DNA from: Geobacteraceae bacterium
GTDB taxonomy: Bacteria; Desulfobacterota; Desulfuromonadia; Geobacterales; Geobacteraceae
Length of the DNA stretch: 41,699 bases
NCBI GenBank assembly: GCA_023701365.1
Contig: JAMPXD010000008.1
Span: forward strand, 1-41,699
Direction of reading: 5' to 3'
The translations under genes and the position numbers were made by a program. The notes under the pieces were generated by a model that saw only the letters and a list, made by a program, of their open reading frames with translations, ran no database searches and was not told where the DNA came from. Of this stretch, positions 1 to 36,647 are shown in pieces (within the stretch, counting starts at the first letter, position 1; each line of letters opens with the position of its first letter).

Positions 1-25
1 CGATTTACTTTTTGCATTTCTATAA

Positions 26-145
26 GTGCAAAGGGGAAAAGTGAAAAGCACGCAACCAAAATCAAATAAGTCAATTTTACATTTTGCATTTTGCACTTTG
101 CACTTTGCACGGTTCATCCCGCACTTTGCACTTTGCATTGCCTTT
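26..145. repeat. Heptamer GTGCAAA/TTTGCAC element, copy 1
   Basis: A left arm of GTGCAAA/GTGAAAA units (26-50) and a right arm of TTTGCAT/TTTGCAC units (77-110 and 129-141). The right arm encodes the hydrophobic core of the pentaheme lipoprotein signal peptide. A further unit (TTTGCAT, 11-17) lies at the window edge. Confidence 0.85.
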
Positions 146-846: not shown

Positions 847-2853
847 TCGATCGGAAAATATTTTCCGGCCCGGTTTCTCATTTTCACCACCCTGCTTCTG
901 ACCCTGCATGCCGGGGAATCCTCCGCCAAGCAAAGAACGTTACTGCAACTGGGCGGGTTGCGGCAACAAATCTCCCTCGACTACACGTACGACGGTGCCG
1001 TCTCCGAGAGTAACGAGGTAACTACTTCAGCCAGCCAGCAGAGATTCGACGAGAATTACGCCATGGGTTTGCGGTATGCCATTTATGATCCCCGCCTTCT
1101 CACTGGCAGCTTCTCCGGAACCGCCGGCCTTACCCAGTCTCAGGAATTGGAGGGCCAGGCCCTGGGGGGGACCGACTCCGGACAGAACTTTCAGTACCGT
1201 CTCACCGGCATGCTGCTGCAACGGGAATCGACACCGGTCACATTTTACAGTTATTCCCAGCTCAACCGGGTCCAGCGGCCGTTCTCTTCCAGTTACGACC
1301 TGACCACCGACGGTTTCGGGGTCGCGATGTCGATACACAACGCGCAGGTCCCCTCGACCATAAGCTACAGCCGGAGCAGCGCGGCCACCAGTGGGCAGGG
1401 GATCGACACCAACTCCACCGGTGATTCCCTTTCCCTGTCCGCCTCCCACAGCTACCGGAACCTGGTTTCAACCTCGGCAAGCTTTTCACGGAGCAGCTCC
1501 GAAACCGATTCCGGCGGGAATGCGGAGGCGACATCCAGCGATGCATACCAGGTGGGCCTTACCAACAACCTGAACATCGACAACGCACGAGGCAGGGCAC
1601 TCCTCACCAAATATCAGTTGCGGAATACAGCAGGCACAAGGTCGACACGGTCTTCCGAATGGACCGAAAACCTGTCATGGGGGTTCGGTAAGGCACTCTA
1701 TGGCGGCCTGAACTATGTGAACAGCTACGAAAACAGCGGCGACCAGAAGGCGACGGCCAACAGCGGCGGGGCCTTTCTGCAGCATCGCCTCTTCGCAAGC
1801 CTGTCGACAAGCCTGAATGGCCATGTCAGCCATTCCGATTTTTCCTCCGGCAGTGTCAGCTCCGTTGGCGGGGGGATCTCCCTCGACTACCAGAAGACAC
1901 TCCCCCGTGAGAGCCTGCTGCAGCTCACCGCCAGCCAATCCTTGTCGGTATCCGAAAACGAGTTGCGTGAAGATGTGCTGTTCGTGACCAACGAACGCCA
2001 TACCGTACCCGATCTTGTCACCGTATTTGAATTCGAACTGGTGAAATCGGACATCATTCATGACGTCCCGGGAGACATCGTCGTGATGAACCGGGACCGG
2101 ACCTTCACCTATACCGAGGGGACCGATTATACGATACGCCAGGATGGGCGGCTGACCTTTGTCGTCTTCCCTCTCACCCCTGCGCCGGGGCCGTTTCCGA
2201 TTACCGCCGGCGTGGAGCTCACCATTGATTACCGCTATCGGGTTGACCCGTCCATAAAATATTCCACCTCAAGCCGCGCCGTTTCGGCCAACCTGTCGCT
2301 CTTTTCCAGCCGCCACAGAATCTATGCCAGCTATGCCGACTCCGACCAGGAGGCCATCTCCCAGCAACAGGATGCCTCCCGTCTCAACGAGAGCCGCCTT
2401 TACACCGTCGGCTATACCGCCAGGCTGGAGTACAGCTCCTTTGCGGTGGCATATCGCCGGCAGGAGTCCACCACTTCCGACAGCGATAACCTGAGTGCAT
2501 CCTGGAGGTTTGCCCGGAATTTCGGCAATAACTACCTGTCCGTGTCCCTGCGGGACAATTACTCCCTGTATGGGAAAAGCGGCGTTGACGGAAACGGGGA
2601 TTTCTCAAACGCCTTCAGCCTGGACAGCGTGTACCAGAAGGTGCTCTACGGACGAATCAACATGCGGCTGAACGGCCAGTATGTTAACATCATGGGACGC
2701 ACGGAAAGCGACACGGTGGCGCTCGGGCTCGACCTCAGCACATGGTTCGGCAGGAGCGAGCTGGTGCTCCAGTCGTCAGTAGACTGGCGCTTCAGCGGGA
2801 CAACCGCAGAGCGGCACGACAATGTCAAGCTGACTTACAGGCGGCACTTTTGA
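802..2853 (+). CDS. Outer-membrane beta-barrel (porin) of the cytochrome conduit
   Basis: About 683 residues with a signal peptide (basic start, core FLIFTTLLLTL, cleavage near ESSA-KQ), then a long series of alternating polar/hydrophobic segments rich in Ser, Thr, Tyr and Asn, ending in Arg-Arg-His-Phe. A C-terminal Phe after alternating residues is the usual outer-membrane beta-barrel signature. There is no heme site. Its position between multiheme cytochromes fits the large porin that sheathes cytochromes in Geobacter porin-cytochrome complexes; strand number cannot be counted reliably by eye. Start is uncertain: GTG 793, ATG 802 and ATG 814 are in frame with no good ribosome binding site. 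The start region (793-846) is itself a degenerate GTGCAAA...TTTGTGCAC heptamer element, so the signal peptide n-region is repeat-derived, as in its neighbours. Confidence 0.8.
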   Translation: MKRAMQKLQCLYCALSIGKYFPARFLIFTTLLLTLHAGESSAKQRTLLQLGGLRQQISLDYTYDGAVSESNEVTTSASQQRFDENYAMGLRYAIYDPRLLTGSFSGTAGLTQSQELEGQALGGTDSGQNFQYRLTGMLLQRESTPVTFYSYSQLNRVQRPFSSSYDLTTDGFGVAMSIHNAQVPSTISYSRSSAATSGQGIDTNSTGDSLSLSASHSYRNLVSTSASFSRSSSETDSGGNAEATSSDAYQVGLTNNLNIDNARGRALLTKYQLRNTAGTRSTRSSEWTENLSWGFGKALYGGLNYVNSYENSGDQKATANSGGAFLQHRLFASLSTSLNGHVSHSDFSSGSVSSVGGGISLDYQKTLPRESLLQLTASQSLSVSENELREDVLFVTNERHTVPDLVTVFEFELVKSDIIHDVPGDIVVMNRDRTFTYTEGTDYTIRQDGRLTFVVFPLTPAPGPFPITAGVELTIDYRYRVDPSIKYSTSSRAVSANLSLFSSRHRIYASYADSDQEAISQQQDASRLNESRLYTVGYTARLEYSSFAVAYRRQESTTSDSDNLSASWRFARNFGNNYLSVSLRDNYSLYGKSGVDGNGDFSNAFSLDSVYQKVLYGRINMRLNGQYVNIMGRTESDTVALGLDLSTWFGRSELVLQSSVDWRFSGTTAERHDNVKLTYRRHF

Positions 2854-3001
2854 GTGCAAATTGCAAAATGCAAAATGCAAAGTGCAAAATGAAAAAACTG
2901 GAAAGCGAAAAATGAAAAACCGGCAAGAAACTAAAATAAATTTGCACCTTGCACTGTCTTTTCGATTTGCACTTTGCATTTTGCACTTTGCACTTTGCAC
3001 T
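2854..3001. repeat. Heptamer element between porin and NHL gene
   Basis: GTGCAAA/ATGCAAA units (2854-2890) face TTTGCAC/TTTGCAT units (2939-3000) around a roughly 50-bp A-rich core. The arms are mutually complementary, so the unit could form a long hairpin. The right arm is translated as the h-region of the NHL lipoprotein. Confidence 0.88.
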
Positions 3002-4000
3002 GCCTTAATGTCCGGCTGCGCCCGGCCACAGCTGGTGGCAACGCCTGCACCCGTGATAGCGCCGGTCTGGCCCTCGCCCCCCCTGGAGCCGCGGATCGAA
3101 TGGGTCAAGGAGATCCGCGATTACCGGGGTGCCGGAGTGGACCGGGGATTCTGGAAACGGGCCTGGGACTTCATCGCCGGGGAGGAGGAGGCGCGCATCA
3201 TCAAGCCCCACGGCGTTTACTTTGATGACATGCAACGGCTCTTCATAGTCGACGCCGGGGGAGCGCAGCTCCACCTCATGGACATGAGGAAGGGGCGTTA
3301 TACCCTCATCCGTCACGAAAACGGCAACGGTTTCCTTTCCCCCGTGGGGATATCCGGGGATGACGGCGGGAATGTCTATGTGACCGACTCGGGAACGGCC
3401 GTTATCTTTCGCTACAGCCTGCAGGACGATTCGCTGACCCAGTTCACCTCTGTCAAGTTCGCCCGACCGACCGGGATCGCCTTCAACAGGGCGAACCGGC
3501 TCCTTTACGTGGTTGATACCGCCGCTCACCAGGTGGTGGCGCTCGACATGACAGGGACGGAGCGGATCAGGTTCGGCTCCCGGGGGCACGGGCCGGGGCA
3601 GTTCAACTACCCAACCGACATCTGCATTGACGGGACGGGTCAGGTGATAGTGACCGACGCCCTGAACTCCCGCATCCAGATCTTTTCTTCCAGCGGCAAA
3701 CCACTCACCGCCTTCGGACAGGCCGGGGACGAGATAGGTCATTTCAACAAGCCGAAGGGGGTTGCGGTCGACAGCGACGGCCATATCTACATCTGCGATG
3801 CCCTGCATGACGCGGTCCAGATCTTCGACCCCCAGGGACAGCTGCTCCTCAGTTTCGGAGAAAGCGGCCAGGAGCCAGGACAGTTCTGGATGCCATCCGG
3901 CATCCATATCGATGCGAATGACTTCATTTACGTGGCCGACTCCTTCAATCAGCGGATTCAGGTATTTAAGTACCTGAAAGAAGTGCAAAGTGAAAAGTGA
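2912..4000 (+). CDS. NHL-repeat beta-propeller lipoprotein
   Basis: A 362-residue protein with NHL blades. Characteristic motifs are G-x-GPGQFNYPTDICID, VIVTDALNSRIQIF, HFNKPKGVAVD, IYICDALHDAVQIF and FIYVADSFNQRIQVF, consistent with a six-bladed propeller. The N-terminus ends in the lipobox ALMSGC (Cys at about 36), so it is probably a lipoprotein. Its h-region (FALCILHFALC) is encoded by TTTGCAC/TTTGCAT repeats and the preceding basic region by GTGCAAA/ATGCAAA repeats. ATG 2912 is chosen because GGAAAG at 2900-2905 sits at good spacing; the frame is open back to 2861. NHL proteins often accompany multiheme cytochromes in Geobacter clusters, and a structural or docking role in the conduit is inference. 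It follows the barrel gene after a heptamer element and precedes the S23-type gene by 3 bp. Confidence 0.82.
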   Translation: MKNRQETKINLHLALSFRFALCILHFALCTALMSGCARPQLVATPAPVIAPVWPSPPLEPRIEWVKEIRDYRGAGVDRGFWKRAWDFIAGEEEARIIKPHGVYFDDMQRLFIVDAGGAQLHLMDMRKGRYTLIRHENGNGFLSPVGISGDDGGNVYVTDSGTAVIFRYSLQDDSLTQFTSVKFARPTGIAFNRANRLLYVVDTAAHQVVALDMTGTERIRFGSRGHGPGQFNYPTDICIDGTGQVIVTDALNSRIQIFSSSGKPLTAFGQAGDEIGHFNKPKGVAVDSDGHIYICDALHDAVQIFDPQGQLLLSFGESGQEPGQFWMPSGIHIDANDFIYVADSFNQRIQVFKYLKEVQSEK

Positions 4001-4015
4001 AAAGTGCAAAATGAA
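3983..4015. repeat. Heptamer left arm before the S23-type gene
   Basis: GTGCAAA and GTGAAAA units; the last unit supplies the GTG start codon of the four-helix-bundle gene. It pairs in orientation with the TTTGCAC arm at 4408-4508. Confidence 0.8.
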
Positions 4016-4378
4016 ACCAGTGAAAATCCGAATAGAAATAACCAGCTTTCTGAGCGCTTGCTGGACTTTGCCGCAAGCATTATCAAAACTACAACCATGC
4101 TTACCAAAGGAGAAGCCAGCTGTCATATTTTCAAACAATTAATGCGTTCTTCCACCTCTGCAGGGGCCAATTACGAAGAAGCACGTGCGGCTGAAAGTCG
4201 TGCCGATTTTATTCACAAGCTCCAAATTGTCTTGAAAGAATTACGCGAATCTATTTATTGGCTACGCTTAACCCAAAAGACAGATCTTATGAAAGTTGAT
4301 CAGCTTGTCCAGGAAGCCAGGGAATTGACCAACATTATTGCAAAGTCAGTAGTAACAGCGAGGAAAAGAGCAAAATGA
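4004..4378 (+). CDS. S23-type four-helix-bundle protein
   Basis: A 124-residue, highly helical protein matching the S23/IVS four-helix-bundle family: FAASIIKTT, a Ser-Ser-Ser/Ala-Gly-Ala-Asn-Tyr-Glu-Glu-Ala-Arg-Ala segment, a Lys-Leu-x-Ile-Val-Leu-Lys-Glu helix and E-S-x-Y-W-L-R-L. The family was first known from insertions in 23S rRNA of some bacteria and is often free-standing; it shares its fold with the Avd protein of diversity-generating retroelements (established knowledge). Function here is unknown. The GTG start lies inside a GTGCAAA array and its TGA stop overlaps the ATG of the next gene (ATGA at 4375-4378), allowing coupling. Heptamer arrays in opposite orientation frame the gene (3983-4015 and 4408-4508), so it may be the passenger of a repeat element rather than an original member of the conduit operon. 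Confidence 0.8.
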   Translation: MQNETSENPNRNNQLSERLLDFAASIIKTTTMLTKGEASCHIFKQLMRSSTSAGANYEEARAAESRADFIHKLQIVLKELRESIYWLRLTQKTDLMKVDQLVQEARELTNIIAKSVVTARKRAK

Positions 4379-6222
4379 CCGTAAATCGCAAAACACGAGT
4401 CTCCAAAACTTTGCACTTTGCACTTTGCACTTTGCACTTTGCAGTTTCTCCCGCACTTTGCACTTTCAACTTTGCACTTTGCATTTTGCACTTTGCACTT
4501 TGCACTTCTTTCGCCCTTGAGCCGTCGATGAGCATCTCCGATCCTCACAACCGCCACAACCTTTCGACCACCGGCCCCGGTCTCCCCGGGGTAACAAAGG
4601 ACACCCAGCAGAGGCAGATCTGCATCTTCTGCCACACTCCCCATCATGCCACATCCGTCACCCCGCTCTGGAGCCGGGACCTTTCCGAGGAAACCTACAT
4701 CCCCTACGTATCCACGACGCTGCGGGCCACTTCGCGCCCGGGCCAGCCGAGCGGCGCATCGCGGCTCTGCCTCAGCTGCCACGACGGCACCATAGCTCTC
4801 GGCATGCTCGCGGGGGAGCGGCAGATCGCCACCCTGCCGCAGCTCCCGGCGGAGCGCGCTTCCAACCTGACCAGCGACCTTTCCGACGACCATCCGATCT
4901 CCTTTTCCTATGCCTCCGCTGTCACCTCCAACAGCGGGCTGCGGCAACCCCAGGAACTCCCTGTGCAGATACAACTGGAAGACGGCAACCTGGAATGCAC
5001 CTCCTGCCACGACCCCCACCGGGACCTCTACCCGCCGCCCGCCAAACCGACCGAGAGCGGAAAATTCCTGGTCCTGGACAACAACGCCAGTTCAGCGCTC
5101 TGCACGGCATGCCATTCCAGGGCGGGACTGACTGACGGCGCCCACTATCTGTCGGACGATGCCTGCGGCAAATGTCACGCCCCGCACAAGGCCCAGCAGC
5201 TCCAGCGGCTGCTGAAGGGACAGACCCTCCAGGATACCTGCCTGCAGAGCTGCCACAACGGCAGCGGCCCGGTCAGCACCACCGGGAGCAACATCCAGGC
5301 CATGCTGAGCCAGCCAAAGGCCCACCGGAGCAGCAGCGGACTGTTGAGCGGCAGCCACGACGCCGCCGAGAACCCCCTTGATTTCACCTCGGCCAACAGT
5401 CATGTGGAATGCGTCGACTGCCACAACCCCTGCCTGACCAGACACGAAACCACCCCCCTGTCCAATCCGCCCTGGATCAACGGCCGCCTGATCGAGGTAA
5501 CCCTGACGAGGGCGGCCGACGGCACCCGGACCATGGCCACTCGTGAATACGAGATCTGCTTCAAGTGCCACGACTCCGTACCCTTTACGCTGGCCGCCTC
5601 CGTCACCGTCAGCCGCAAGATCCCGACGCTGGACGAGTCGGCCCGTTTTTCTCCGGACAACCCCTCCTATCACCCGGTCATGGCGGCAGTGAGAGGCGCG
5701 GACGTTGCCCCCGTTCCCAGCCTCAGGGCGGAGATCCTGGGCACTTCCCGGCAACTGACGGTCGGCGGCATGATCTACTGCTCGGACTGTCACAACCCCC
5801 ACGGCGCTCCGCCTCCGATCACCCACCTGCTGGTCGCCGAGTACCAGCACACCTCCCAGCCATACAGCTACAGCAATTTCGAACTCTGCTACCGCTGCCA
5901 CCGGGAGGAGATCATCATGAGCCCGGCCCAATCGTCGTTCCCGAACCACAAATCCCACGTGGACCCCGACCCGGTTGTCGACCCGCTGGGGAGACATACC
6001 GGCAAGGAGGTTCCCTGCTCTGCCTGCCACGACCCGCACGGGGTGCCGGTAACGCTGGGGGGGACCACCACGGCCAATGCCCACCTGATCAACTTCGACA
6101 CGAACATCGTCAGCCCGGCGACCCCCGTGCCGGTCTACACGGCCACCTCCCCCGGCCACGGGTCGTGCACCGTCAGCTGCCACACCACGGGGAGCCCCGA
6201 CCCGCAGACGCATGCCTATTAA
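4375..6222 (+). CDS. Dodecaheme-type secreted c-type cytochrome
   Basis: A 615-residue protein with ten CXXCH sites (CIFCH, CLSCH, CTSCH, CTACH, CGKCH, CVDCH, CFKCH, CSDCH, CYRCH, CSACH) and two CX3CH sites (CLQSCH, CTVSCH), so up to twelve hemes. Many sites continue as CHxPH or CHDPH, the doubled-CXXCH pattern. Residues 1 to about 50 form an export signal made almost wholly of heptamer-repeat translation (LHFALCTLHFA and FALCILHFALC) ending near SFA-LEPS, a plausible signal peptidase I site; there is no lipobox. Start ATG 4375 overlaps the stop of the S23-type gene. As the last gene after pentaheme lipoprotein, barrel and NHL protein, it is the likely extracellular cytochrome of the conduit, receiving electrons through the barrel for minerals or electrodes. 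Family assignment is firm; the exact acceptor is unknown. Confidence 0.88.
   Translation: MTVNRKTRVSKTLHFALCTLHFAVSPALCTFNFALCILHFALCTSFALEPSMSISDPHNRHNLSTTGPGLPGVTKDTQQRQICIFCHTPHHATSVTPLWSRDLSEETYIPYVSTTLRATSRPGQPSGASRLCLSCHDGTIALGMLAGERQIATLPQLPAERASNLTSDLSDDHPISFSYASAVTSNSGLRQPQELPVQIQLEDGNLECTSCHDPHRDLYPPPAKPTESGKFLVLDNNASSALCTACHSRAGLTDGAHYLSDDACGKCHAPHKAQQLQRLLKGQTLQDTCLQSCHNGSGPVSTTGSNIQAMLSQPKAHRSSSGLLSGSHDAAENPLDFTSANSHVECVDCHNPCLTRHETTPLSNPPWINGRLIEVTLTRAADGTRTMATREYEICFKCHDSVPFTLAASVTVSRKIPTLDESARFSPDNPSYHPVMAAVRGADVAPVPSLRAEILGTSRQLTVGGMIYCSDCHNPHGAPPPITHLLVAEYQHTSQPYSYSNFELCYRCHREEIIMSPAQSSFPNHKSHVDPDPVVDPLGRHTGKEVPCSACHDPHGVPVTLGGTTTANAHLINFDTNIVSPATPVPVYTATSPGHGSCTVSCHTTGSPDPQTHAY
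4408..4508. repeat. Heptamer right arm after the S23-type gene
   Basis: At least eight TTTGCAC/TTTGCAT units with two short interruptions. Fully translated as the signal peptide core of the dodecaheme-type cytochrome. Confidence 0.88.
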
Positions 6223-6228
6223 AGGCAA

Positions 6229-6318
6229 TTCAAAGTGCAAATTGCAAAGTGCAAAGTTGAAAAGCTTTTCATGCCTTTAATTTTGCACTTTGCAATTTTC
6301 ACTTTGCACTTTGCACTG
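6229..6318. repeat. Heptamer element downstream of the conduit operon
   Basis: GTGCAAA/TTGCAAA units (6232-6260) and TTTGCAC/TTTGCAA units (6283-6317) around a short core that contains a GAAAAGCTTTTC palindrome. This copy is intergenic and could fold as a hairpin after the cytochrome gene. Confidence 0.85.
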
Positions 6319-6337
6319 CTCTTCTTACTGGGTTAAA

Positions 6338-6756: not shown

Positions 6757-9700
6757 ATGACGGGAAAATCACTAAGAAAAGCCGCAGCACGGTCGGCTTT
6801 GCTTCCCGCCGCAGCCCTGCTGGTTGGGCTGGCAGGAGGCACGGCGCTGGCCTACAATGCGGCGCACGACAATATCGTGCTCAAGGACGCGGGTGGCAAT
6901 AACATCACGATGAGCGGCGCCGGCAACGCCTACAGCGTACAGACCACCTGCTTCACCGCCAGCTGCCACGGCACCGGCAGCGGCTCTCTGGCGTTCACCT
7001 ACGACCAGATGGAGAAGCACAACTACCACGCCATGAACGGCTCCAACGAGGTTCGTGGCTTCAACGCCTGGAACCCCGACGGGGTGCTACCGAATGGCGA
7101 CGCCGACCCGCTGCGCCGCGGCGTCGCCACCCAAGGGAAAAACTGGGTACAGAGCCCCGGCCACGTGGGGAACTGGTGACCGCCGTCCGCTCGCCAGTTG
7201 GCGAGAATGTTCAAAGACGGTGCAGGCACCACCTATGATTCGGCAATTGCCAAGTACATCTCCGTTCCCTTCGGGATGACGGCCGCTCCCACGACTGCTA
7301 ACCCGACCGGCACCGCCAACGTTCCGGCAATCGGAGCTACCGCGGCGTATGAGCCCTTCAACTTCACCGACGCGGCAGGCCTGGAGAAGAAGGCCGACAA
7401 CACCTTGGTCGGCAACATGATGGACTGCGGCGAGTGCCACGTCGGCGGCGGCGCCATGCAGTACATCCCCAACTACGCCGCAGCCAGCCCGATGGCCGGC
7501 ACCTCCAACCCCGGTGCCCGCATCCCGCTCCGCACCGCAGGCACGACCGGCGGTATCCTCGCCGGTTTCTGGACTACCTTCAACTCCTTCATCGACATCT
7601 TCGGCCCGGCAGGCGACGGCGCCAGCCCCTCCTACCAGGCCAAGCAAATCGACTACGCCGACTCGGGCGTCCTCGAGATGGACTGCCTCGTCTGCCACCT
7701 GAAGGACTACAGCTGGGAGAATCGCAGGGACGCGGTCCGCATGGCCAAGTTCGACGCATCCCGCGCCTACGGTGCCGGCATCGCCACCCTCGCGACCGCC
7801 ACTACCGACATGAGCGGCGCGACGATCGTGACCAACGGCCGGAACGTCATTTACGACCCGGCCAAGGTGGCCTTCGTGAACGGCTCCACCGCCTCCAACG
7901 GCATCAAGCTCGTCTCCGCCGTGGCCCAGAAGATCACCGCGGTGCCCGACGCCAACAACTGCGCCTCCTGCCACTTCGCCACCGTCAAAGAGAAGTACCA
8001 GGTCGAGTGGAAGAAGCGCGGCGAGTTCTGGGGCGGCAGCGAGGCCCACACCGGCATCGGCTGCATGGGCTGCCACCAGCGCAAGGACCGGACCGTCAAC
8101 GGCGACATCGACACCGCCAACGTCGGCACCTCCGGCATCGCCAACTCCAACAACAAGAAGCTCGGCCTGTGCGACCCGGCCAAGGGCGCCGACTGCGACT
8201 ACGACGCCCAGTGGGGCGCGGTCGACAAGGTTGCCTTCAAGGCCTGCAACGACTGCCACCAGGATACCGCAGCGGCCACCGCGACCTATCCTATCGATCT
8301 CGCCAACGGCGAAGACTACGGCGCACCCAAACCGGCCGACATCCACAAGGCGTTCGGCCTCGCCGACATGATTGCCTACAATGCTGACGGCACTGCCGCC
8401 AACCACCTGCAGATCATCGACTGCACCACCTGCCACGCCAGGAAGCTCGATGCAAGCGTCGCCCTGTACGACGCGGACGGCGCCTTCAGGAACTACACCA
8501 CCTTCCCGATCACCGGCGGCGCCATGGTCGACGGCACCGGCACGGATGAGCAGGGCCGCCTGGCGGTCCATGACGAAATTGCTGTCGAGCGCGAGATGAA
8601 GGACAACATCGCCCTCTACTGGAAAAACGGCAAGCTGTTCGTCGGCAACCTCCTCTCCTCCTTCCTCATCCGCGACGCGAACGGCCTGTTCGACGCCAAC
8701 AACGACGGCCGCGGCCCGGGCCTCGACCCGGCCCTCCCGACCCACACCGCACGGCTGAACGAGGCCGCCGGCCTCCACGCCCTGACCCACGACGGCGTGG
8801 TGGACGGTACCGAGGTCGCGACGATGTTCACCAACATCCAGACCAACCTGAAGCCGATGATCGGCTCCGGCAGCCTCGAGACCATCGTGCCGAAGATCTC
8901 CATCATGGGCGTGCCGTTCAAGGTAAGCCACAACATCGCTCCGAAGATCAGCGCCTGGGGCGTCAAAGGCTGCAAAGAGTGCCACAGCTCAACCAGCAAG
9001 TTCATGAGCAGCTTCATCGACATCTCGCCGAAGACCGACTTCAGCTGGAACGCCGGCCAGTTCGCCAACATCCAAAAGGTCAACGGCTCGACCCAGCCGA
9101 GCGACATCCACGCCCAGGTCGTCGAGAAGAAGGGTGTGCGTTCGGTAGCGGTCAACTACGCCAACAACAGCAATACCGACCTGTCCACCGGCTTCCGTGA
9201 CGTGCAGAAGGCCGAGCTGCTCTACGAAGCGACCTTCACGAAGCGCGACTCCACCTACAAGTCCACCATCACCGGCACTTCCCGCCCGGTCCCCGGCGCG
9301 GCCAACAGCCCGTGGTACAACGCCGGCGCCTCCGTACCCGGCACCACCGTCACCGCCGGCTGGACCATGAAGATCGAGGCGGCGCCAGAAGGTTCCGCAG
9401 CCACCGTAAGCCCGACCGCCGTCCGTACCTTCTCGGTCACCAGCGGCACCCTGACCAGCGTCGACGCCCTCATCACCCACATGGGCGCTGCCTTCACCAC
9501 CGACCTGCCCGAGTTCACCATCGCCGGCATCGACACCAACGCCGACTTGGTCAACGACGCAATCGAAATCACCGCCAAGGCAGGCTTCCAGGTTCGTCTC
9601 TCCAACCAGACCGACGTCGGTCCGTTCGGCCTGACGGGCGCCCTCTGGATTGCCGACCCGATCACCCGCAACAACGCTTACACCGGCGACGCGGACCTTG

Positions 9701-15186: not shown

Positions 15187-15217
15187 CATTGCAAAATGCA
15201 AAGTGCAAAGTGCAAAA
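15187..15217. repeat. Heptamer left arm in the intergenic region
   Basis: TTGCAAAATGCAAAGTGCAAA-type units. Matches in orientation the TTTGCAC arm at 15446-15484; between the two arms lies a different palindromic repeat (15281-15444). Confidence 0.82.
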
Positions 15218-15280
15218 TTAAAGTCTTAAGTGCGAAGACTTTCCCCCTGATAAGAGGGGATGCCTTTTCGCTTTTCATTT

Positions 15281-15444
15281 CCTGATTATCGCTGATCTTC
15301 AGCCACACCCAAAAACTCCCTCCCCTTCAAGGGGAGGGGCGGGGTGGGGATGGGTACTGGCAGCCTCGAAGCCCCCCATCCCCCTCCTAACCTCCCCCTT
15401 GAAGGGGGAGGAAGCTGAATAGCTGAAGATCAGCGATAATCAGG
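15281..15444. repeat. 165-bp imperfect palindrome (GGGGAGG element)
   Basis: The outer 23 bp (15281-15303 and 15422-15444) are perfect inverted repeats; inner blocks are CCTCCCCTTCAAGGGGAGG and CCTCCCCCTTGAAGGGGGAGG. It could form a long hairpin. It is nested between two heptamer arms, as if inserted in the core of such an element. A decayed relative sits at 23793-23846. Confidence 0.8.
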
Positions 15445-15445
15445 T

Positions 15446-15484
15446 TTCATTTTGCGATTTGCACTTTGCACTTTGCAATTTGCC
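15446..15484. repeat. Heptamer right arm next to the regulator gene
   Basis: TTTGCGA, TTTGCAC and TTTGCAA units immediately 3' of the minus-strand response regulator. The whole intergenic stretch 15179-15489 is repeats; no gene seen. Confidence 0.82.
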
Positions 15485-15489
15485 TATTC

Positions 15490-18367: not shown

Positions 18368-18423
18368 TTCATATAAAGCAAATTCCCTGCCGGGAAAGTC
18401 AAACCGCAAGCCGATGAGCACCA

Positions 18424-18461
18424 TCTTGCACTTTGTATTTTGCATTTTGCATTTTGCACTC
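18424..18461. repeat. Heptamer right-arm array
   Basis: TTGCAC, TTTGTAT, TTTGCAT, TTTGCAT and TTTGCAC units. Only a trace of a left arm (TTTGCAAAAT at 18351-18360) is seen. Confidence 0.78.
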
Positions 18462-18498
18462 TCCACAGTGCGTCATATCCTCCACAGTGCGTCATATC
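18461..18498. repeat. 19-bp tandem direct repeat
   Basis: CTCCACAGTGCGTCATATC occurs twice back to back, about 270 bp upstream of the sigma-54-type promoter. It may be a binding site or a simple duplication. Confidence 0.8.
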
Positions 18499-25367: not shown

Positions 25368-25368
25368 C

Positions 25369-25464
25369 AATGCAAAATGCAAAGTGCAAACTTTAAAATG
25401 CAAAATGTTAATGCCTTTGCATTTCCATTTTTCACTTTGTATTTTGCATTTTTCACTTTGCAGT
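25369..25464. repeat. Heptamer element before the YihY gene
   Basis: ATGCAAA/GTGCAAA units (25370-25409) and TTTGCAT/TTTTCAC/TTTGTAT/TTTGCAG units (25418-25461). The stretch is open in frame with the downstream gene and would add a 32-residue basic-then-hydrophobic leader. Confidence 0.85.
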
Positions 25465-25472
25465 ACCCCCAT

Positions 25473-29339: not shown

Positions 29340-29359
29340 GCCGGCACTATAACTAAAAT

Positions 29360-29457
29360 ATGTGCAAAGTGCAAAATGCAAAATGCAAAGTTGAAATCGA
29401 AAAACCGTTCTCAATTTTGCACTTTTCACTTTGCACTTTAAACTTTGCACTTTCAAA
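29360..29457. repeat. Heptamer element between lpxH and the UPF0158 gene
   Basis: GTGCAAA/ATGCAAA arm (29361-29393) and TTTGCAC/TTTTCAC arm (29417-29453) around an AAACCG core. It is near-symmetric and open in both directions, in frame with both divergent genes: on each strand it reads as a basic stretch followed by a LHFALCT-like hydrophobic stretch. Confidence 0.87.
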
Positions 29458-35365: not shown

Positions 35366-36647
35366 CGCCCCGCGGCGCCCCCTTTGTCACCTCCGGGGGT
35401 CTCGGCCTTCGCCAGTGCACCTGTTCGGCGGCCTTTCGGTACCATTTGGCCGCCTCCATCCTGTCCTGCTGCACCCCCTCCCCCTTGTCGTACATCAGGC
35501 CGATTTTCAGCTGTGCCCTGGGGTGTCCCTGCTCCGCCGCCTTCAGGAACCATTTGGCCGCCTCGGTCTGGTCCTTTTCGACCCCCTCTCCCCCGAAATA
35601 GAGGGAGCCGAGGCTGAACTGGGCTTCGGCATCCCCCTGCTCGGCGGCCTTGCGGTACCATCTGGCCGACTCCCGGTCGTCCTGGGCCACCCCCTGGCCC
35701 CTGCCGTACATCAGGCCAAGATTGTACTGGGCCGGCGCCACCCCCTTGTCAGCGGCCCGGCGGTACCACTTGGCGGCCTCCTTCCAATCCTGCTTCACCC
35801 CTTCCCCCTTTTCGTGGAGAAGGCCGAGATTGTACTGGGCCGCCGCATGACCCTTGTCGGCCGCCTTGCGGTACCAGACGGCCGCGTCCTTCTTGTCCTG
35901 CTTCCCCCCTGCCCCCTTATCGTAGAGCAGGCCGAGATTGAACAGGGCCGGCAGATAACCCTGGCCGGCCGCCTTGCGGTACCATTTCAGCGCCTCTTTC
36001 CTGTCCTGGTTGACCCCCTCCCCCCGGTCGTACAACAGGGCCAGGTTGTACTGCGCCGCCGTATACCCTTTCTCGGCGGCCTTGCGGTACCACTTCAGGG
36101 CCTCCTGCCGGTCCTGCTCGATCCCCTCTCCCCGGTCGTACACCAGGGCCAGGTTGTACTGGGCCGTCACCATCCCCTGCTCGGCGGCCTTGCGGTACCA
36201 TTTGGCCGCTTCCTTCCTCTCCTGCGCAACCCCCTCCCCCCGGTCGTACAGGACGCCGAGGTTGAACTGGGCAACGGCATGACCCTGCTCGGCGGCCTTG
36301 CGGTACCACCTGGCAGACTCCCGCCGGTCGTATTCAACCCCCTCCCCCTTGGAGTACATCAGGCCGAGATTGTACTGGGCCGGGGGGTATCCCTGCTCGG
36401 CAGCCCTGCGGTACCAGTTGGCCGCCTCCCGGGTATCCAGCTTGACCCCGGTGCCGACATAGTACATCAGGCCGAGGTTGAACTGGGCCTCGGCACTGCC
36501 GTCGTTCTTGAACTCGCGGAAAGCCGTGGCGTAGTCCCCCTCGTCGTACGCCCGCATCCCCGCATCGAAGTCGGCCAGGGCCGGCAGCGCCGACCCGGCG
36601 TACATGGCAACACCCAGAAAAAGTCCTGCCACGGCACGTTTCATCAT
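35355..36647 (-). CDS. Exported SEL1-repeat (TPR-like) protein, ten repeats
   Basis: A 430-residue protein with signal peptide (MMKRAVAGLFLGVAMYAGSA, cleavage near ALA-DF), a TPR-like start (FDAGMRAYDEGDYATAFREF) and ten tandem 36-residue SEL1 units of the form AQYNLGLLYDxGEGVxQDxxEAxKWYRKAAEQG. Such alpha-solenoids bind other proteins; partner unknown. ATG 36647 (a second ATG at 36644) follows AAGGAGC. The C-terminus is a short Arg/Pro-rich tail overlapping the end of plsY. The repeats are very alike at DNA level (108-bp units), which invites copy-number change. Confidence 0.9.
   Translation of the reverse strand: MMKRAVAGLFLGVAMYAGSALPALADFDAGMRAYDEGDYATAFREFKNDGSAEAQFNLGLMYYVGTGVKLDTREAANWYRRAAEQGYPPAQYNLGLMYSKGEGVEYDRRESARWYRKAAEQGHAVAQFNLGVLYDRGEGVAQERKEAAKWYRKAAEQGMVTAQYNLALVYDRGEGIEQDRQEALKWYRKAAEKGYTAAQYNLALLYDRGEGVNQDRKEALKWYRKAAGQGYLPALFNLGLLYDKGAGGKQDKKDAAVWYRKAADKGHAAAQYNLGLLHEKGEGVKQDWKEAAKWYRRAADKGVAPAQYNLGLMYGRGQGVAQDDRESARWYRKAAEQGDAEAQFSLGSLYFGGEGVEKDQTEAAKWFLKAAEQGHPRAQLKIGLMYDKGEGVQQDRMEAAKWYRKAAEQVHWRRPRPPEVTKGAPRGVTP

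Follow-up and report, generated by a model that had tools for sequence, protein, structure and literature searches.

What does an S23-type gene do inside a cytochrome operon, between tandem heptamers that point toward each other, and is the whole arrangement a mobile element? The question is raised by a 41,699-nucleotide stretch of a Geobacteraceae genome (contig JAMPXD010000008.1), the whole of which is called here the window. It contains an intact gene (4004-4378, + strand) encoding a four-helix-bundle protein of 124 aa of the S23 / 23S_rRNA_IVP family, which matches PF05635 (E=2.7e-15, 56.9 bits against a curated cut-off of 33.8) and TIGR02436 (E=1.7e-22, 79.7 against a cut-off of 24). The left arm is made of tandem GTGCAAA/GTGAAAA heptamers (3978-4017, + strand), the right arm of about 14 TTTGCAC units in the inverse orientation (4405-4510, - strand), and gene and arms together cover about 530 bp. 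The first-pass annotation had described a complete S23 gene framed by inverted heptamer arms, with its start codon in the left arm. Both points hold: the gene lies between the GTGCAAA and TTTGCAC arms, and it starts with a GTG at 4004, within the left one. The pattern TTTGCACTTTGCA, with at most 2 mismatches, has 64 matches in the window for 0.65 expected, and the arms of the S23 element pair in the predicted RNA.

The element is intertwined with the coding sequences on both sides. Upstream, the gene of an NHL-repeat protein with a lipoprotein-like N-terminus (2861-4000, + strand) obtains its last codons and its TGA stop (3998-4000) from the left arm. Downstream, the TGA of S23 overlaps the ATG of a multiheme cytochrome c gene (4375-6222, + strand) in the sequence ATGA (4375-4378). 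The hydrophobic N-terminus of this cytochrome (LHFALCTLHFA...) is the right arm read in frame, and the comparison with orthologues shows that the arm has replaced the native start region. Heptamer arrays encode signal-peptide-like N-termini in the proteins of 26-679, 2861-4000 and 4375-6222 (respectively, LHFAFCTLHFA..LTGC, LHFALCTALMSGC, and LHFALCTLHFA); here repeats seem to have been co-opted as coding sequence. Elsewhere in the window, a 108-bp unit repeated in tandem about ten times (35420-36495) probably encodes a repeat protein.

Looking for empty-site orthologues of the operon had been proposed in the first-pass annotation, and we found 15 orthologous NHL-cytochrome junctions in relatives. 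All of them lack both S23 and the heptamers, so that the copy of the window is an insertion in the cytochrome operon; several have a stop codon that directly overlaps the next start codon. Among the sites compared, none was a clean empty site near enough to judge target duplication, and no transposition event was found. A search of 400 kb in three sister Xanthomonas genomes for target-site duplications and empty sites likewise gave none that was clean. As for carriage by phages, a tblastn search of a phage collection with one S23 query returned no match, and this vehicle was rejected.

The window also contains S23-less elements, consisting of a left arm, a short core, and a right arm. Five are found in the window (22-141, 2851-3004, 6226-6321, 25368-25465, and 29358-29457), with further ones elsewhere in the genome; the one at 2851-3004 gives the NHL gene its signal-peptide-like N-terminus. 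Inverted arms also surround a longer S23-less core at 15187-15485, and a solitary arm lies at 18421-18467 (- strand). The RNAs of the six empty elements that were folded are long predicted hairpins (z from -4.7 to -7.0). The empty copies had been proposed to be derivatives of the S23 element, and such a derivation was seen directly at one intergenic site followed in seven congeners: two of the seven have an S23 element with AGGGGCT arms, and a third species has an internally deleted copy in which the same arms are kept around a 5' remnant of S23. In the other four, 105-159 bp of unrelated sequence occupies this position, and the homology of the flanks stops at the arms. Hence, loss of S23 by internal deletion can leave arms around a remnant, and S23-less copies can derive from an S23 element. 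At this orthologous site, three loci show a different inverted hairpin with a periodicity of about 9 bp (AACGCAAAGGCGCAAAG type).

Inverted arms are not peculiar to this locus. Three stand-alone S23 genes are present in the genome, of which one is short and degenerate, and their inverted heptamer arms all differ (GTGCAAA, GAGTTTT, and GGCTAAA types). When 93 S23 loci were taken from this genome and 57 related ones, arrays of period 7 were found upstream in 50 of 91 and downstream in 62 of 92, against 14 of 84 and 5 of 89 in control regions located 900 bp further out. In this set, other periods were close to zero, except for the harmonic at 14 and periods of 8 or 9 at a handful of loci. The result was the same for 80 loci drawn from about 25 phyla. 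Upstream flanks aligned to their own reverse-complemented downstream flank with a median score of 39, compared with 18 for mispaired flanks. We then scanned the 163 S23 loci (those of relatives plus those of the ~25 phyla) jointly for both arms with periods 5 to 12, using mispaired flanks as the control. Inverted tandem arms were detected in 110 loci (67%), versus 9% in the control, and the armed loci have mostly period 7 (96), with seven at period 8 and three at period 9. In about a third of the 163 loci no arms were detectable in the scan, including those of the subfamily of the YRSFKDMPVWQ type (three loci). The first-pass annotation would have been refuted by unarmed S23 genes elsewhere and by conservation of the gene at this place in species without the heptamers; instead, most other S23 genes are armed, and gene and heptamers are missing together from the 15 orthologous junctions. 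These results identify the S23 gene and its arms as one unit that recurs across Bacteria.

Could the arrays be a chance product of composition, that is, simple repeats that happen to lie in intergenic DNA? Many bacterial genomes are over-rich in heptameric simple repeats, according to one study (PMC4692102), which would favor such an artefact. Shuffled sequences, mispaired flanks, far-flank controls, and the specificity for period 7 rule it out, and we regard it as almost certainly wrong.

Some loci extend or depart from the common layout. Ten named plasmid loci (of cyanobacteria, Azospirillum, and Gemmatirosa, the latter with octamers) mostly fit the S23-plus-inverted-arms organization. Several plasmid S23 genes lie within gene clusters, as in two cyanobacterial plasmid CRISPR loci where S23 stands between cas6 and cas4. 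Eight loci represent S23 subfamilies with arrays of period 8 or 9. Two S23-like proteins are longer (~250 aa) and have no obvious arms, one having a cysteine-rich C-terminal region; they were set aside as a different form of S23.

The heptamer varies between loci but follows the relatedness of the S23 proteins. Heptamers lie within 1 nt of each other in 74% of the S23 pairs above 65% identity, and in 1-2% of the pairs below 45%. With 52 matches in this genome, the GTGCAAA array pattern is missing from 56 of the 57 relatives, and the last of them has a single match with one mismatch. Dispersed copies of a heptamer occur where the matching S23 is present. The correlation between heptamer and S23 across relatives can reflect the co-inheritance of one unit rather than recognition of the heptamer by the protein.

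In Xanthomonas, 31 of 35 genomes have an S23 element, intact or decayed, between accB and accC. Genomes with an intact S23 at this site have 39-202 matches to arrays of the GGGAATC/GGGATTC types, versus 0-24 in those where S23 is missing or degraded (p=5e-4), a correlation that is not fully phylogenetically controlled. Four genomes without S23 at the site have there an arms-only element of the GGGACCC type. The S23 genes form two classes, A with GGGAATC arms and B with GGGATTC arms, and the share of GGGATTC among genome-wide arrays is 0.13 for class A and 0.39 for class B (p=8e-4). The class of S23 predicts the predominant array type, in a comparison that approaches a phylogenetically controlled test without being one: on the tree, which was built from the accB-accC flanks, the class switches nine times, which is near the number given by shuffled labels, and of five sister contrasts one runs the opposite way. 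A dispersed repeat of ~150 bp (~9089-9260 of locus L291) has around 100 or more matches per genome in five Xanthomonas genomes.

At accB-accC, sequence identity drops on reaching the arms and is restored a short way outside them; what lies between the arms is replaced as a block while the site stays the same. At dispersed Xanthomonas sites, replacement of whole elements was seen at single sites. Turnover there (8 of 31) is no commoner than in a crude intergenic control (9 of 47, p=0.58), and we therefore do not claim it as a rate. Ordinary recombination would also produce block exchange between arms. S23 might then be a passenger, with arrays growing by slippage or through another agent, and recombination between arrays picking up and exchanging the gene. 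That some arrays persist in Xanthomonas genomes without S23 agrees with such a role, as does the lack of any recognised catalytic domain in the cassette, whose ORF has PF05635 as its sole Pfam match. We nevertheless find a passenger role improbable: the association is specific to one gene family and spans phyla, the heptamer follows S23 relatedness, and the dispersed array type is predicted by the S23 class.

In Xanthomonas, dN/dS computed within the S23 classes is 0.06-0.09: the protein is maintained, under strong purifying selection. The closest solved structure is PDB 2RLD for the S23 of the window and PDB 2GSC (XCC0516 of Xanthomonas campestris) for the S23 of accB-accC. The latter is a homopentamer of four-helix bundles to which no function has been assigned (PMC4990558). 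Purifying selection would also be expected if S23 served the host as an RNA- or DNA-binding regulator or an RNA chaperone, the arrays being its binding sites and its own flanks autoregulatory, with nothing mobile. Arrays do occur near gene starts and within operons, and a study of Geobacter metallireducens reads its heptanucleotide sets as binding sites of a global regulator (PMC2700814). Against this, the arms are the boundaries of a cassette, as seen both in the insertion relative to the 15 orthologues and in block exchange; S23 is patchy and found at differing locations; one genome can hold different heptamers; and arrays encode the termini of proteins. We consider such a regulator unlikely, and return to S23 with its arms as a mobile cassette.

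Which known systems resemble such a cassette? The intervening sequences (IVSs) of the 23S rRNA of Coxiella, Leptospira, and Brucella enclose an S23 ORF in a loop closed by complementary ends, and the element of the window shares this S23 ORF between complementary termini. In contrast to them, it lies between the NHL-repeat and cytochrome genes rather than in a 23S rRNA gene, and it has many S23-less relatives in the genome; the S23 family is also widespread outside rRNA. The analogy with IVSs, already drawn in the first-pass annotation, is strengthened by the Coxiella element: upstream of its S23 ORF are tandem heptamers (GACAGAT) that differ from strain to strain, its terminal stem is 28 bp long, and it is excised by RNase III (PMC4990558). 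The same study cites an earlier suggestion that IVSs had been mobile elements and that their ORF had a role in mobility. It also concludes, which speaks against an active S23 there, that the S23 protein of Coxiella is probably not made in vivo (PMC4990558). In the open-access literature surveyed, no paper tied S23 to genomic heptamer arrays, and this remark on Coxiella was all that came near such a link.

Insertion sequences and MITEs are marked by a transposase and a target-site duplication; Pfam searches found no transposase in the cassette, and none of the sites compared was a clean empty one on which a duplication could be judged. In REPtrons, a RAYT (TnpA-REP) gene lies between inverted short repeats and cognate gene-less REP copies are dispersed in the genome, much like the S23 element. 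Yet RAYT is a Y1 HUH transposase, whereas Pfam gives only PF05635 for the cassette and the four-helix bundle of S23 contains no recognised catalytic domain; the arms of the S23 element are also tandem heptamers, unlike those of REPtrons. Avd, of the diversity-generating retroelements, is a four-helix-bundle protein of the same superfamily as S23. It acts with a reverse transcriptase and TR/VR repeats, features of these retroelements. PF05635 itself is named in PMC10053308.

Taken together, we think it probable that S23 and its inverted arms are a mobile cassette, of which the rRNA IVSs are the ribosomal members, and that S23 acts on its cognate heptamers. Such a selfish cassette would insert into transcribed regions, often within operons and between their genes, and the S23 protein that it encodes would recognise the cognate heptamer. 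The pentamer may bind the arms, either in DNA or in the RNA stem that they form; binding could help the cassette to spread, maintain the arrays, or exchange cassettes from one armed site to another. Paired in RNA, the arms would make a stem like that of an IVS, which RNase III might cleave. Because S23 has no recognised catalytic domain, the chemistry would come in trans from host enzymes or a reverse transcriptase. S23 may drive the movement of the cassette. On this view, copies that came to rest in 23S rRNA genes would have given the rRNA IVSs of Coxiella and Leptospira.

Arrays of tandem heptamers are described in Xanthomonas (GGGAATC) and Nostoc (GGGGA(C/T)T) (PMC4692102), in Beggiatoaceae (TAACTGA; PMC4679880), and, as heptanucleotide sets, in Geobacter metallireducens (PMC2700814). 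They are the same kind of array, and the GGGAATC type of Xanthomonas flanks S23 there. In the passages of the three papers that were consulted, neither S23 nor a gene-bearing element with paired inverted arms is mentioned. The likely source of the unexplained 7-base repeats in many bacterial genomes is a mobile element of cassette type that is still poorly known. More tentatively, with a chance that we put slightly below even, there may be a single pan-bacterial, transposase-less mobile element with tandem heptamer ends, whose sole gene encodes the S23 pentamer that recognises them, and from which both the rRNA IVSs and the orphan heptamers of Xanthomonas, Geobacter, and cyanobacteria originate. 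The cassette as such brings together three loose ends, namely the function of the S23 family, the over-representation of heptameric repeats, and the origin of rRNA intervening sequences. It also gives a rule that predicts the pairing of heptamer and gene, and makes the function of S23 directly testable through binding of the cognate heptamer. It is also a case of arrays of repeats becoming coding sequence, in the window as signal-peptide-like N-termini and stop codons of neighboring genes.
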